Source of the DNA: an uncultured Roseiflexus sp.
GTDB taxonomy: Bacteria > Chloroflexota > Chloroflexia > Chloroflexales > Roseiflexaceae
DNA length: 49,365 nucleotides
Assembly (NCBI GenBank): GCA_937935075.1
Contig: CALGYB010000036.1
Span: 1-49,365 of the forward strand
Reading direction: 5' to 3'
Of this stretch, positions 3,522 through 41,785 are shown piece by piece (position 1 is the stretch's first letter; the number at the start of each line of letters is the position of its first letter). The notes beneath the pieces were generated by a model. The model had not been told where the DNA came from. It did no database searches and was given only the letters and a program-made list of their open reading frames with translations. The translations under genes were made by a program, and so were the position numbers.

Positions 3522-6500
3522 TCACCCAAACAACACCTCCACATCCTCGCGCGTGAGCGATTTGAGCATGCTGGCGTCGGCAGTGATCAGTTGCCCAACA
3601 AGATCGCGTTTGCGCTGTTGGAGGTGCAGGATTTTCTCTTCGACCGATTCGCGGGTGATGAGTTTGTAAACAAAAACCGGTTTCTCCTGACCGATGCGGT
3701 GGGTGCGGTCGGTTGCCTGCATTTCAACTGCCGGATTCCACCAGGGGTCAACATGGATGACATAGTCGGCAGCGGTCAGATTCAGCCCGACGCCGCCAGC
3801 TTTCAGGCTGATCAGGAAGAACGGCAGCGTCTCGTCGTTCTGAAAGCGATCGACCTCTTGCTGGCGCCGACGGGTCTGACCGTCGAGGTAGGCGTACCGG
3901 ATGGAACGCGCATCGAGCGCTTCGCGGATGAGGGTCAGCATCTGAACGAACTGCGAGAAGACCAGCGCCTTGCGCCCCTCAGCCGCCAGGGTTTCGAGCG
4001 TTTCCAGGAGCAACTCGAATTTGCCAGACAAACCGCGGAAGTCGGGGGCGACCAGTTTCGGATGGTTGCAGATCTGGCGCAGGCGCAGCAACCCTTCGAG
4101 CACCTTCATGCGCGCATTGTTGATTCCTTCGTTGTCGATCAGCCCCAGCAGCAACGCGCGGTAGTAGTCGCGCTGTTTGACGTACATGCGACGCTGTGCC
4201 GGTTCCATCTCGATTTCGAGCAACCGTTCGCTGCGCGGCGGCAATTCTGGCGCCACCTGATCCTTCGTGCGGCGCAGGATGAAGGGGTGGACCATTTTGC
4301 GCAAAAACTGCGCCGTCTCCTGGTTCTGCTTCTTTTCGATGGGAGTGACGAACTCCTCACGAAAATAGTCCAGATTGCCAAGCAGTCCAGGGTTGAGGAA
4401 CGCAAACTGGCTCCACAGTTCGAGCGTCGAGTTTTCAACCGGCGTGCCGGTAAGAACCAGGCGCCGTTCGGCGTTGAGCAGGCGCGCCGCTTTCGCAGTT
4501 TCCGCCAGCGGATTCTTGATCGCCTGCGATTCATCGAGAATGACGTAGCGAAAACAGTAGCGCCGCAGCAACTCGATGTCGCGCAGCATGGTACTGTAGG
4601 TGGTCAACACCAGATCGTAACGGTCGAACAGCGCCGGATCGCCGATGCGGTCAGTATCGTGGTGAACATAGACGCGCAGATCGGGGGTGAAGGTTGCGGC
4701 TTCGCGCTCCCAGTTGAACAACAGCGAACGCGGCATCACGATCAGGCTCGCGGAGCCATCAGGGTGGCGCTCTTCGAGCGATTGCAGAAACGCCAGCGCG
4801 CAGACGGTCTTGCCGGTGCCCATGTCGTCCGCCAGGCAGCCGCCGAAACCATACTCGTTGAGGAAGTGGAGCCACTCATACGCAGCGCGCTGATAGGAGC
4901 GCAGTTCGCCGCGGAAACCGCGCGGCAATGGCTGCGTCTGAATGTGCTCGAACGAACGCAAGCGTTCACGACGCCGCTCGAACTCAGCGTCGGTCTGCGC
5001 GCGGTCGGCGTCAGCGAGAAGTTGATCGATGAGGGTCAGGTGACTCTGCGACAGGCGCACGCCTGTGTCGGTCTCTTCACCGAGGGCGAACAGGTAGCGA
5101 TAGCGTTCGAGCCACTCTTCGGGAATCGCGCCGATGGCGCCGTCCGCCAGTTTCAGATACTTCTCGCGGCGACGAATGGCGCGGCGCACCTCCTTGAACG
5201 GCGCCTCGAGGTCGCCGAAACAGACGACCGCCTCAAGGTCGAACCAGTCGATGCCGGAACTGATACGAAACGAGATCTGCGGACGATTGCGGTTGACCCG
5301 CGCCGTCTTGATCTGGTCTTCGCCGAAAATCTCGAACCCGCGCTGCGTCAGGAGCGGGATGCGGTGCAGCAGAAAATCAAGCGGGTGGACCGTCCTGCGC
5401 AGATCGAACCATCCAACGTCGGCGCACTTTTTCAGCCCATATGTGGACGCTCCCAGGTCCTGCAGGAAGACCATTTCCTCTTCGATATAGCGGCGGATGC
5501 GTACCATGGTCATCGTCCCGGGATGTCGCCGGATGATGCGTTGTGGCGGCGATTTGTCCGCCTGCACTTCATAATCGCCGTAGGCGAAGCGCACCTGCGC
5601 GCGCAGTGTTCCTTCCGCCTCACTCAGGTAAACGCGCGGCGTCGGCGCAACATCAATGTCTTCCCAGCGCAGCAGATCGCCGCTGAGCGGCAACTGCTCC
5701 GCCAGCGGCAGCAGATACCGATCGAAGAACTCTTCCTGCTCATTCGGAGGAATCGTCAGGTCGGGGTATTCGATCAGGGCTTCAGCGGCGCCGTCTGGCG
5801 CATCAACCGGCAACAGCCATTCACCGACGATCAGCCGGAGCGGTCTACGGATGAAGACCGTGGCATCGCGCGGATCGAGCGCAATGCGTTCACCGGCGAC
5901 GTTCAGGTGTGCTCTGAGGCGGAGCGCGCCTTGATCGCCCTGCTCGACGGACATCTCGACCGATGCTGGCCTGGTGAGCACGCGCACACGGTACTGAAAC
6001 GGATTGTCCTGTTCGCCGATATAGACGAGTTGATCGGCGAGCAGCGGGAGTATCGGATCATAGACAGCGCTTCGATCATTGCCAAACAAGTAGGAAATGT
6101 AGGGCGCACTGTTGTTGGTGACCACGATCATATTGACGGCATTGATCGTTTCCACAGCGACGCCCGGATAGGAAGCCCGATTGATGCGTGATGAGATCGG
6201 GCGCGCCTCGCTCGACAGGTTCAACGACGCGATGGCTTCCGCCAGCGCCTCGGGGTCGCGCAGCGCTTCAGAGGGAAGGGAGCGGTGTGCAATCGCATAG
6301 GGAACGATCGTCCATGAGGAATTGCTGCGCTGCACACTGAACACAATGCAGGCATGATGAACAGTCGGCGCGCGCTGCGGTTGCGCTTCGACTATTTTGC
6401 CGATCACAGCGCGCCACAGGCTTGGAGGACGCTCGATCAGGTAATCGCGGAGCGCCAGCAGCGCCGCCACGCGGTGTCGGCAGAGCGTCCAGTAGTGGCG

Positions 6501-37665: not shown

Positions 37666-38826
37666 TCAACCGCTCGACGCTGAACGCCGGTTGCGCGCCT
37701 GCGCCATGAGCTCGACAAACTGGCGAAACAGATAGCGTGCATCGTGCGGTCCTGGCGCGGCTTCAGGATGGTACTGCACACTGAAGGCGCTCTGATCCGG
37801 CGCACGCAACCCCTCAACACACCCGTCATTCAGGTTAATATGCGTAATCTCGACCCCCTCCGGCAACGACGCCTCCTCGACTGCAAAGCCATGGTTGTGG
37901 CTGGAAATCTCCACCCGCAACGTGTCGCTGAAACGCACTGGCTGATTGACGCCGCGATGACCGAAATGCAATTTATAGGTCGTGCCGCCAAGCGCCAGAC
38001 CCAAAATCTGATGCCCCAGGCAGATGCCAAATACCGGCGTTTTGCCCAGCAAATCACGCACAGCCTGAACGCCATACGTCACCGCCGCCGGATCGCCTGG
38101 TCCATTCGAGAGGAACACGCCGTCGGGTTCGAGCGCCAGCACATCGGCGGCTGGCGTTGTCGCGGGCACAACAGTGACGCGGCAGCCATGCTCCGCCAGC
38201 AGGCGCAGAATATTGCGCTTGATCCCGAAGTCGTAAGCCACAACATGGAACGTCGGCTCGCCACGTTGCGCCGGCGTTTCGCCCGGACCCCACTCCCCCG
38301 GATTGCCTTCGACCCAGTGGTACGGCTCAGCGCAGGTGACATACGGCGTCAGATCGAGACCATTCATCGACGGCGCGGCGCGCGCAGCGGCAATCAGGCG
38401 ATCCGGTTCCAGGTTCTGCGACGAAATCACGGCGCGCATCGCACCCCTTGTGCGGATGTGGCGCACCAGCGCGCGGGTATCGACGCCGGTCATCGCCACA
38501 ATGCCATGCGCTGCCAGGTATTCGTCGAGCGACTGTGCCGCGCGCCAGTTGGAGACATACGGACTGGCGGCGCGCACCACGAACCCCGCCACCCAGGGAA
38601 GACGGCTTTCTTCGTCCTCATGGTTGACGCCGGTATTGCCGATATGCGGCGCCGTCATCACCACGATCTGCCCATAGTAGGAAGGGTCGGTCAACACTTC
38701 CTGATAGCCGGTCATCGAGGTGTTGAACACTGCCTCACCAGCGCGTTCGCCGACCGCCCCCAGCGCATACCCATGCCAGATCGTGCCATCTTCCAGCGCC
38801 AGCATCGCCGGTGTGCGTTGTCTCAT
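37666..38826 (-). CDS. carA: Carbamoyl-phosphate synthase small (glutaminase) subunit
   Basis: CarA releases ammonia from glutamine for CarB. The 386-residue protein has the CarA-specific N-terminal domain ([29 protein letters not shown]). The class I glutamine amidotransferase domain follows, with the nucleophile elbow [17 protein letters not shown] and the partner His/Glu in [13 protein letters not shown]. All triad residues are present. The start at 38826 follows a GAGGT site. It lies 12 bases after the argA-like gene, so it belongs to the argB-argA-carA string, and carbamoyl phosphate supply is probably tied to arginine control as well as pyrimidine synthesis. Confidence 0.97.
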
Positions 38827-38838
38827 GCCAGACCTCTT

Positions 38839-39354
38839 TCACCCCTCAAACTCAACCACCACCGCCGTTTCATCACACGCATGCTGAAGCGGGCAAATCG
38901 CACAATCCCGCCAGACTTTTTCAGGGAAGTCCTCTTTCGAAGTAATGCGAAAACCCAGTTTCTCGAAGAAAGGAACGGCGCGTGTCAGCGCAAACACCTT
39001 TGGAAACCCGCGACGACGCGCTTCTTCCACCAATCCGCGGACAATCGCCTGCCCGATGCGCAACCCGCGATACTCAGGCAGAACAGCCAGTGAACGCACC
39101 TCAACCAGCGTCGGACTCATCTGCACCAGCGAACCGATACCGGCGACGCTGCCTTCCACTTCCGCAACCAGCCACGACGACAACGTGGCGCGAATATTGT
39201 CGGCGCTACGCGGCAGCAGATGTCCCTGACGGGCATTTTCGGCGACAATGGTGACAATAGCGTTGATGTCGTCCTCTTCAGCGCGGCGCACGATAATGTT
39301 CGGCGCGCGCGGCGGCACGACAAAGACCTGCGATTCGCGGACGTGTACGGTCAT
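38839..39354 (-). CDS. Short N-acetylglutamate synthase-like GNAT acetyltransferase
   Basis: The 171-residue protein is a single GNAT domain with the acetyl-CoA loop VLPEYRGLRIGQAIVRGLVEEARR (Q/R-x-x-G-x-G/A type). Its end, ALTRAVPFFEKLGFR then VWRDCAICPLQHACDETAVV, matches short ArgA-type N-acetylglutamate synthases, including the Cys-rich tail. It should make N-acetylglutamate, the first arginine precursor, topping up the cycle run by ArgJ. Its ATG overlaps the argB stop as ATGA (39354-39351), and it is followed closely by carA. No kinase-like regulatory domain is present, so feedback inhibition, if any, differs from that of long ArgA. Confidence 0.88.
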   Translation of the reverse strand: MTVHVRESQVFVVPPRAPNIIVRRAEEDDINAIVTIVAENARQGHLLPRSADNIRATLSSWLVAEVEGSVAGIGSLVQMSPTLVEVRSLAVLPEYRGLRIGQAIVRGLVEEARRRGFPKVFALTRAVPFFEKLGFRITSKEDFPEKVWRDCAICPLQHACDETAVVVEFEG

Positions 39355-40130
39355 TCGTGTGGTTCCCTTTCCGTAACGATGGTCGTTCCGTGTTCGAGCA
39401 TACCTTCCAGATTGGTGATCCGCGCAGCGCGCACACCGGCGTCGAGCGCCGTGAGCGCCGCGCGCACTTTGGGGATCATCCCGCCGCTGATGGTCCCATC
39501 GGCGATCAGCCGTTCAATGTCGCTGCGCGTCAGCAGGCGCATCACATCGCCATTCACCAGCACTCCCGGCACATTGGTCACAAAGACGACCTCGTCGGCG
39601 CCGAGAGCAGCGGCGACGGCGCCTGCCGCTTCATCGGCGTTCACATTGTATGGTCCGTCCGACCCCAGCGCAATCGGCGCGATGACAGGAATGACGCCGT
39701 GCCCGAGCAACTCAGCGAGCACCTCGCGCCGCACGGCGGTTGGTCGTCCGACGCGCCCCAGATCGCCCGCCGGATGCTCCTGTTTCACCACCCGGATGAG
39801 ACCGCGATCCACGCCGGAGATGCCGATCGCATCGGCGCCGGCAGCAATGAGCGCCGCAACCAGGCGGGTGCTGACGCTACCGCACAACACCATCTCCGCA
39901 GCGGTCAGCGCCGTTGCATCGGTGTAGCGCAGCCCGCCGACAAACCGGGGGGTGCTGCCGAGCGTTTCCTGCAAAACGCCGATTTCTTTACCGCCGCCGT
40001 GCACCAAAACGGGATACGGACGCAGCGCAGCCACGATACGCGCCAGTTCGCCAACGAACGCTGTGTCGTCGAGTTCGTTGCCGCCGACTTTGATCACCAG
40101 CGTTGGTTGGCGATCGTTCAGGTCTGTCAT
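39351..40130 (-). CDS. argB: Acetylglutamate kinase
   Basis: ArgB phosphorylates N-acetylglutamate, the second step of the acetylated arginine route. The 259-residue protein shows VIKVGGNEL (phosphate-binding Lys, about 12-20), VLVHGGGKEIGVLQ, GLIRVVKQEHPAG, YNVNADEAAGAVAAALGAD and ISGGMIPKVRAALTALDAGV, all family hallmarks. Length is slightly short but complete. A GGAGAGAGGAG ribosome site precedes the ATG. The stop overlaps the next gene (argA-like) by 4 bases. The 427-base gap to argC is filled with repeats, so either the transcript reads through or an unseen promoter serves argB. Confidence 0.96.
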   Translation of the reverse strand: MTDLNDRQPTLVIKVGGNELDDTAFVGELARIVAALRPYPVLVHGGGKEIGVLQETLGSTPRFVGGLRYTDATALTAAEMVLCGSVSTRLVAALIAAGADAIGISGVDRGLIRVVKQEHPAGDLGRVGRPTAVRREVLAELLGHGVIPVIAPIALGSDGPYNVNADEAAGAVAAALGADEVVFVTNVPGVLVNGDVMRLLTRSDIERLIADGTISGGMIPKVRAALTALDAGVRAARITNLEGMLEHGTTIVTEREPHE

Positions 40131-40557: not shown

Positions 40558-41568
40558 TTACGCCAACCCGGTTGTTTCGTCCAGTCCGAACATCAGGTTC
40601 ATATTCTGGATCGCCTGACCGGCTGCGCCTTTGACCATGTTATCTTCACTGGAGACGACGATGAGCAACCCGGGCCGCGCCAGGGTCAGCGAGATGGCGC
40701 AGACATTAGTGTACGTTGTATGCGCCAGAGTTGCCGGCTCGCCCGCCGGCAGCACCCGCACGAACGGTTCACCGGCATACTGCTCGCGGTACAGCGTCCG
40801 CACCCGATCTTCGCTCCAGTCGTCCGGGATGCGCAGATAGATCGTGCTCAGGATGCCGCGGCTCACCGGCAGCAACTGCGGCGTGAACACAATCTCCGGC
40901 GTCATGCCGCGCGCGATCCGCTGCGCTTCCTGGAGCATTTCACCGACATGCCGGTGGACCTGCCCGATATTGTATGGCGCGAGATTTTCGTTCACCTCGA
41001 CGAAGTGCGTATTCTGCTTCGGCGCGCGCCCTGCGCCCGACACCCCCGACTTGGCATCGACGATGATCAGCGGATCGGTCAATGCGCCCGCCATCAGGAG
41101 CGGCGCAACCCCCAGCAGCATACCGGTCGGGTAGCAGCCGGGGTTGGCAATCAGCGCAGCGCCACGCAGCGCCTCACGGTTGAGTTCCGGCAAGCCATAG
41201 GGCGCCGGCAGCAACTCAGGCGCCGGATGGTCGTGCCCATACCAGCGTCGATAGGCTTCAGGCGTGGTCAGGCGAAAATCGGCGGAGAAATCGATCACCC
41301 GCACGCCAGCCGCGCGCGCGCGCCGCGCCATCGTTCCCGCAGCGCCGTGTGGCAACGCCAGAAAGACCAGATCGACATCGCCGAGCGGTGCATCATCGGG
41401 CGCAACCAGCGGTGCATCGAGGGGACCAGGCACGACATCAGCGAGCGACGCTCCGGCCGACGACTCGGAGGCGGTGAAGACAATACGCACTTCTGGGTGG
41501 CGTCGCAGCCAGCGAAGTAATTCATACCCGGCATAACCGGTTGCGCCAAAAATGCCGACGCGGATCAT
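40558..41568 (-). CDS. argC: N-acetyl-gamma-glutamyl-phosphate reductase
   Basis: ArgC reduces N-acetylglutamyl phosphate to the semialdehyde with NADPH. The 336-residue protein has the Rossmann start VGIFGATGYAGYELLRWL. The catalytic cysteine block is IANPGCYPTGMLLGVAPL (about 140-157), and further family blocks are SGVSGAGRAPKQNTHF and HRHVGEM (active-site His). It is the first gene of the arginine cluster and lies 13 bases behind the hairpin and U-rich run of the attenuator; the ribosome site GGAGGGC is immediately before the ATG. Control by the Arg-rich leader is inferred from the sequence upstream. Confidence 0.96.
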   Translation of the reverse strand: MIRVGIFGATGYAGYELLRWLRRHPEVRIVFTASESSAGASLADVVPGPLDAPLVAPDDAPLGDVDLVFLALPHGAAGTMARRARAAGVRVIDFSADFRLTTPEAYRRWYGHDHPAPELLPAPYGLPELNREALRGAALIANPGCYPTGMLLGVAPLLMAGALTDPLIIVDAKSGVSGAGRAPKQNTHFVEVNENLAPYNIGQVHRHVGEMLQEAQRIARGMTPEIVFTPQLLPVSRGILSTIYLRIPDDWSEDRVRTLYREQYAGEPFVRVLPAGEPATLAHTTYTNVCAISLTLARPGLLIVVSSEDNMVKGAAGQAIQNMNLMFGLDETTGLA

Positions 41569-41575
41569 GCGCCCT

Positions 41576-41615
41576 CCAAAGAAAAGCCCTTCGGACCATT
41601 ACTGTGTCCGAAGGG
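41576..41615 (-). terminator. Attenuator terminator of the arg cluster
   Basis: On the minus strand CCCTTCGGAC (41615-41606), a 9-base loop, and GTCCGAAGGG (41596-41587) form a perfect 10-bp stem followed by CTTTTCTTTGG. This is a standard intrinsic terminator placed between the leader ORF and argC. Its left arm with one more base, ACCCTTCGGAC, can instead pair with GTCTGGAGGGT (41685-41675) in the leader ORF. Confidence 0.85.
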
Positions 41616-41671
41616 TGGATCATCACGCTGACGCTTCTCTTGCCCGATGCACTCGTGCTGCGCACGCGCGG

Positions 41672-41746
41672 CTAACCCTCCAGACCGGTGCGACCCGGAC
41701 GACGGAAGCGACGCAATGTGCGCAGGTTGTCAGGCGTTTGATTCAT
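41672..41746 (-). CDS. Arginine-rich leader peptide of the arg attenuator
   Basis: A 24-codon ORF starts MNQTPDNLRTLRRFRRPG and ends at TAG (41674-41672). Six of its residues are Arg (9, 12, 13, 15, 16, 19), all CGC or CGT codons. The ATG lies only 10 bases after the -10 hexamer, so the mRNA would begin a few bases before it and translation would be leaderless or nearly so; no ribosome-binding site is visible. An in-frame ATG at 41761 overlaps the -10 hexamer and is unlikely to be transcribed. A ribosome stalled on the Arg run for lack of charged tRNA would leave codons 21-24 free to form the antiterminator. Confidence 0.8.
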   Translation of the reverse strand: MNQTPDNLRTLRRFRRPGRTGLEG

Positions 41747-41756
41747 AGCGAAGGTA

Positions 41757-41785
41757 ATCATAGCGCCGATTATTCTGGTTGTCAA
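41757..41785 (-). promoter_or_regulatory. Promoter of the arg cluster
   Basis: TTGACA (41785-41780) and TATGAT (41762-41757) are separated by exactly 17 bases on the minus strand. Transcription should start near 41750, about four bases before the leader ATG. Confidence 0.88.

Follow-up and report, generated by a model that had tools for sequence, protein, structure and literature searches.

Ribosome-mediated transcription attenuators of the trp, his, leu and thr type, known from Proteobacteria, combine a promoter, a short open reading frame (ORF) rich in the end-product residue, a competition between antiterminator and terminator, and a protector hairpin that forms when the ORF is untranslated, and they control the matching biosynthetic operon. 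The leader described here upstream of argC has, or is predicted to have, all of these features. It differs in the amino acid that would be sensed, arginine, in its Chloroflexota host, in the lack of a Shine-Dalgarno site and in a predicted 5' leader of about 4 nt. In mycobacteria, leaderless cysteine attenuators reportedly use the codons of a short ORF to sense the amino acid and to control the downstream operon. These mycobacterial cys leaders have no obvious terminators (PMC1262725), whereas the argC leader, with Arg instead of Cys codons, has a strong intrinsic terminator and an antiterminator. Morbach 2000 (as cited in PMC10272879) reported that the ilvBNC attenuator of Corynebacterium glutamicum makes its leader peptide with no ribosome binding site. 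This system shares transcription attenuation and the missing ribosome binding site with the argC leader, but it senses branched-chain residues and belongs to the Actinobacteria. In Salmonella, the leader ORF orf34 of speF has two Arg codons in a row, and pausing of the ribosome on them reports the arginine supply (PMC6386406), as is proposed for the Arg codons of the argC leader. In contrast to the argC leader, orf34 has a Shine-Dalgarno site and controls ornithine decarboxylase via Rho-dependent termination, translation and RNase G decay; it is not an intrinsic-terminator attenuator of arginine synthesis. The ArgR repressor and Arg T-boxes act on the same pathway and signal by a different mechanism.

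Based on sequence comparison and folding models, we consider it very probable that the leader before argC is a classical ribosome-mediated transcription attenuator, near-leaderless, which senses the charging of Arg-tRNA. The mechanism as such is a classical one. Leader peptides that are leaderless or have no ribosome binding site are already known from Actinobacteria, and pausing at Arg codons is known from Salmonella speF. New, with a reservation on priority, is the combination of an Arg-specific intrinsic-terminator attenuator of an arginine operon with a near-leaderless start in a lineage without ArgR, which is absent from Rfam and from the literature found. No Arg attenuation in Chloroflexi was found in the literature searched; Lopatovskaya 2010 (doi 10.1134/S0026893310010164) lay outside its coverage, which leaves priority uncertain.

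Layout and conservation of the argC leader

All leader elements and argC are located on the minus strand of the window, i.e., the whole analyzed stretch of 49,365 nucleotides from an uncultured Roseiflexus sp.:

41757-41785, minus strand: sigma-70-type promoter TTGACA-N17-TATGAT, 11 of 12 consensus bases (TTGACA 41785-41780, TATGAT 41762-41757)
41672-41746, minus strand: leader ORF of 24 codons, MNQTPDNLRTLRRFRRPGRTGLEG (ATG 41746, TAG 41674-41672)
41718-41725, minus strand: protector hairpin, 5' arm CTGCGCAC (P 0.975 without ribosome; minimum free energy (MFE) fold)
41699-41722, minus strand: putative sensing region, Arg codons 9, 12, 13, 15 and 16 (masked-ribosome folding)
41675-41685, minus strand: antiterminator left arm GTCTGGAGGGT, identical with the 3' end of the ORF (11 nt, 13 nt past Arg16)
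41658-41665, minus strand: protector hairpin, 3' arm GTGCGCAG (masked-ribosome folding; MFE fold)
41606-41616, minus strand: left arm of the terminator, shared with the antiterminator as its right arm, ACCCTTCGGAC (pairing, covariation)
41578-41596, minus strand: terminator right arm GTCCGAAGGG (41596-41587) and T tract CTTTTCTTT (covariation)
40558-41568, minus strand: argC, putative first controlled gene (ATG 41568; TIGR01850 with 375 bits, cutoff 234)
37666-40130, minus strand: argB, N-acetyltransferase (argA-like) and carA (ORF positions and family matches)

The sequence-only reading had already proposed the leader elements and argC, and every coordinate and element that it gave proved correct when the sequence was re-read. 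This applies to the promoter, to the 24-codon ORF with Arg at positions 9, 12, 13, 15, 16 and 19, and to the perfect 10-bp terminator stem (CCCTTCGGAC, 41615-41606, with GTCCGAAGGG, 41596-41587), which is followed by the T tract CTTTTCTTT and directly by argC. The 11-bp alternative pairing between the 3' end of the ORF and the left arm of the terminator likewise exists as described. The promoter is the sole promoter-like site within 1.5 kb (0.2 expected in the region). The genes behind the leader are arginine synthesis genes, the pathway that matches its Arg codons: argB matches TIGR00761, carA matches TIGR01368, and the best family of the argA-like acetyltransferase is PRK07757, just below cutoff (147 of 154 bits). 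Likely, argB, this N-acetylglutamate synthase-like acetyltransferase and carA are the remainder of the argC operon.

We located argC in every one of the 82 genomes of the order. Upstream of argC, 31/31 loci read from Roseiflexaceae and Herpetosiphonaceae, i.e., from the families f1 (including records named Roseiflexus, Roseiflexaceae and Kouleothrix) and f3 (including Herpetosiphon aurantiacus DSM 785), combine an Arg-rich leader ORF with an intrinsic terminator and an antiterminator that excludes it. Across genera the sequence drifts, with the ORF and its Arg cluster, the terminator and the alternative pairing all retained; a lack of a conserved ORF or pairing in related genomes would, according to the sequence-only reading, have refuted it. 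The 17-nt promoter spacer also recurs in all 31 of these Chloroflexia loci, and the leader ATG, located 10 nt past the -10 box in the window, lies 7, 9 or 10 nt past a TANNNT box in each of them, a kept spacing which supports the near-leaderless start that had been suggested. A Shine-Dalgarno site was not found at the leader start of the 31 loci. Leaderless genes have been recognized by a TA-like box that precedes the start codon by about 10 nt and by the lack of a Shine-Dalgarno site, and account for about 4.7% of genes in the four Chloroflexi genomes where they were detected (PMC3160421); by this definition the leader start would count as leaderless in 31/31 Chloroflexia loci. In the Anaerolineae loci, the apparent distance from box to ATG is mostly 12-41 nt, so that near-leaderless loading seems to be chiefly a trait of the Chloroflexia.

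The leader peptide drifts from MNQTPDNLRTLRRFRRPGRTGLEG to MKKQMLTNLFSPALRLRRPRTNEVRWACAVCAA and MNKQTSATPMMRRADRRRVRTGPESVIRIG, with tandem Arg always kept. The Arg codons vary by lineage (CGT in most, CGA in genus g9), and the peptide beyond the Arg cluster is unconserved. Anaerolineae-type leaders show the motif RRxRRPxTxEV, and its codons for EV (GAGGT) form base pairs with an ACCTC in the terminator. The argC leader L189 (G417) has an in-frame TAG ahead of the Arg codons (MFVDQA, then stop), which may be due to decay, a sequencing error or another start; its sister L190 (G210) is intact (MLIFTAQAFPRRPRPPRTTGLVFKVA).

Alternative folds and the proposed switch

The leader folds more stably than shuffled sequences (z -2.75). 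A structured leader is what a metabolite riboswitch or a protein-binding leader with an incidental ORF would also provide. However, no relevant family of Rfam release 15 was matched at gathering or relaxed thresholds, and a T-box covariance model gave no match in the window. The conserved part is the coding Arg cluster with drifting synonymous codons, and no conserved aptamer-like core was seen beyond the ORF and the terminator, which makes such a leader highly improbable.

For attenuation, the ribosome was modeled as a masked stretch on nascent RNA reaching up to the left arm of the terminator. Without translation, the second pairing of the sequence-only reading (CTGCGCAC with GTGCGCAG) forms in the window as a protector hairpin with P = 0.975 and the antiterminator has P 0.00. 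When Arg 9, 12, 13, 15 or 16 occupies the A site, the antiterminator reaches P 0.96-0.99, and with the ribosome at the stop codon neither the protector hairpin nor the antiterminator (P 0.00 for the latter) is formed. At Arg19 the antiterminator has P 0.00. Because the ribosome there masks the antiterminator arm and the sister genome G065 has Cys at this position, Arg19 is probably a non-sensing codon; the sensing codons would be those at positions 9, 12, 13, 15 and 16. The three states are little changed at 50 and 60 °C. Among the further sequences tested, several from Roseiflexaceae and three from Anaerolineae switch on and off in the same way. In the window and in most Roseiflexaceae models, the antiterminator arm is blocked when a ribosome sits at the stop codon, but this is not so in Herpetosiphon and some Anaerolineae models. 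As the arm is left free in Herpetosiphon, release there would depend on timing or come about otherwise. In an RNAalifold consensus of 14 Roseiflexaceae, the Arg-codon region pairs with the stretch after the stop codon. When the full leader of the window is folded to equilibrium, the terminator prevails even if a ribosome is stalled on it. The switch would therefore have to be kinetic and decided during RNA synthesis, which is normal for attenuators.

From the elements, their conservation and the exclusivity of the modeled folds, all of which were computed, we infer as follows how transcription starts, how the ribosome loads and stalls and how transcription is terminated. RNA polymerase would initiate about 4 nt ahead of the ATG, and the ribosome would load without a Shine-Dalgarno site. 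When Arg-tRNA is scarce, the ribosome would stall at Arg codons 9-16, break the protector hairpin and leave the end of the ORF bare, which could then pair with the left arm of the terminator and allow read-through into argC-argB-argA-carA. When Arg-tRNA is plentiful, the ribosome would reach the stop codon and cover the arm, and the terminator would form before argC. Without translation, the protector hairpin would hold the arm, and the terminator would form as well. If true, this would be a natural case of a sensing ribosome which is loaded at the bare 5' end of an RNA, close behind the polymerase, and the coupling of leaderless initiation and attenuation would become directly testable.

A ribosome covers about 12 nt ahead of its A-site codon. 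Across two classes, the antiterminator helix follows the last pair of tandem Arg codons, measured from the second codon of the pair, at a median distance of 12 nt (interquartile range 11-13), and the distance from the helix to the stop codon varies (mostly 0-37 nt). This fixed spacing of about 12 nt together with a drifting stop codon speaks for a ribosome that stalls at hungry Arg codons and against arrest by the peptide at the stop codon. In the latter case, the nascent Arg-rich peptide would bind free arginine, comparable to the fungal arginine attenuator peptide, and stall the ribosome when arginine is abundant, a stall near the stop favoring the terminator. In the window, the stop codon is directly adjacent to the antiterminator arm, and an arrest there would act in the right direction. 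However, the spacing that is kept is that between Arg codons and antiterminator, not between antiterminator and stop. Arrest peptides need specific residues, but those outside the Arg cluster are unconserved, and the Arg codons differ in the third base. An arrest peptide is therefore very unlikely.

The pairing of leader and terminator also supports attenuation at the Arg codons. Cognate duplexes have a mean of -21.2 kcal/mol compared to -17.0 kcal/mol for swapped ones (z -10.4; 0/20,000 permutations as good). For 24 genus-level representatives, a design which removes relatedness in part only, z is -6.1 (0/50,000 permutations as good). Compensatory changes, which the sequence-only reading had named as a check, are found as well: the terminator pairs of 11 Roseiflexaceae sequences contain 16 double-change cells, compared to 5.8 after shuffling and no more than 4 after sliding the alignment. 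The antiterminator shows 7 against 2.8 when shuffled; as 7 is also reached on sliding by one column, we regard this covariation as moderate. In the Anaerolineae, the terminator pairs covary and the antiterminator pairs are nearly invariant, so that they add no covariation support. The terminator is strong (about -20 kcal/mol) and could act alone next to an unlinked small ORF, for example by insulating argC from upstream transcription. A plain terminator, however, would give no reason to keep the cognate pairing, the 12-nt spacing and the spacing of promoter and ATG, and as the promoter is located upstream of it, it would only silence argC. This is the least probable of the explanations considered.

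Distribution, ArgC phylogeny and ArgR

To the 31 Chloroflexia loci, 58 argC loci of metagenome-assembled genomes from Anaerolineae, Ardenticatenales, Thermoflexales and Aggregatilineales were added from a scan of named genomes, and about 42 of them carry an Arg-rich leader and a terminator according to our reading. The leader was not found at argC in the Chloroflexaceae-like family f2, in f4 and in G042, nor within 4 kb upstream of argC in the six genomes tried among these. A detector that requires an Arg-cluster ORF together with a terminator upstream of argC fired at 29/30 positive loci, in 1/600 dinucleotide shuffles of the positives and in 1/39 argC upstream regions of the sister families, the latter being a false match beside a tRNA-like stretch. 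Searching the whole order with covariance model R1 gave one convincing site per scoring Roseiflexaceae genome, located at argC. The strongest R1 match away from argC (G031) was rejected as an unrelated, cobalamin-riboswitch-like terminator. In the phylum search with model R2, 8 candidates were scored per genome, which strongly undercounts; two matches in Chloroflexaceae-like genomes were rejected as coding DNA. In genus g12 of f2, whose genomes lack the attenuator, a conserved small ORF close to MFTRFLKFLRRLGQIHPAVIAIAPDRTW immediately precedes a -10-like box in front of argC (L048, L050, L052, L054, L058 and L071).

In the ArgC tree, the genes of Roseiflexaceae and Herpetosiphonaceae group with the main leader-bearing clade of Anaerolineae (support 89/83), apart from f2/f4 (99/97) and from the ArgR-bearing lineages. 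This grouping would suit an old element which was lost several times, the root and some deep forks of the tree being weakly supported. A survey of classical attenuation lists Proteobacteria, Actinobacteria and, newly, Firmicutes (PMC2965389); if true, the argC leader would extend it beyond these groups. Three records named Singulisphaera, Thermoflexus hugenholtzii and Pleurocapsa (L101, L112 and L136) contain an argC of the Chloroflexota type, with a leader in L136, and are probably misnamed or misbinned.

The remark of the sequence-only reading that arginine genes are usually controlled by ArgR can be sharpened, as ArgR (PF01316) is missing in 82/82 genomes of the order, with positive controls matched. 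In 97 of 400 sampled Chloroflexota genomes, PF01316 was found above cutoff, and 0/20 argC loci of ArgR-bearing Chloroflexota show the leader. Among 50 genomes behind the Anaerolineae-type loci, ArgR was found at the curated cutoff in one, a Latescibacterota-named record without leader. The contrast would fit a replacement of one control by the other and is confounded by phylogeny. As f2 and f4 have neither ArgR nor the leader, some other control may exist there. To our knowledge, no regulatory logic for arginine synthesis has been described in these lineages, and the attenuator, if true, would supply one. More broadly, ribosome-mediated attenuation might be an old and general control of amino acid synthesis in ArgR-lacking Chloroflexota, made near-leaderless in the Chloroflexia, with leaderless sensor ORFs (Arg for argC, Thr for thrC) in place of DNA-binding repressors. 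We offer this tentatively and think it somewhat more likely to be wrong than right.

A Thr-rich leader and possible leaderless starts

A Thr-rich leader ORF with a GC-rich terminator, e.g., MIKPCCASTTTTTTMLTHTTTRVSTYVW, is found before thrC in Roseiflexaceae:

G000:C84, about 3600-3900, minus strand: candidate thrC leader L080 (relatives L227-L230, L244, L249, L252-L256)

From its sequence, it looks like a second attenuator. It is near-leaderless in several genomes of genus g9, and its start codon is unconserved in Roseiflexus itself.

In the genome to which the window belongs (G000), the pattern TTGACA-N16-18-TANNNT-N6-11-ATG occurs at 19 places, compared to 2 for the reversed pattern. This roughly tenfold excess over the reversed control suggests that the genome contains a set of leaderless genes. 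Among the 19 places are short ORFs that precede a redox-sensing-repressor-like gene (L078) and a NUDIX-like gene (L084).
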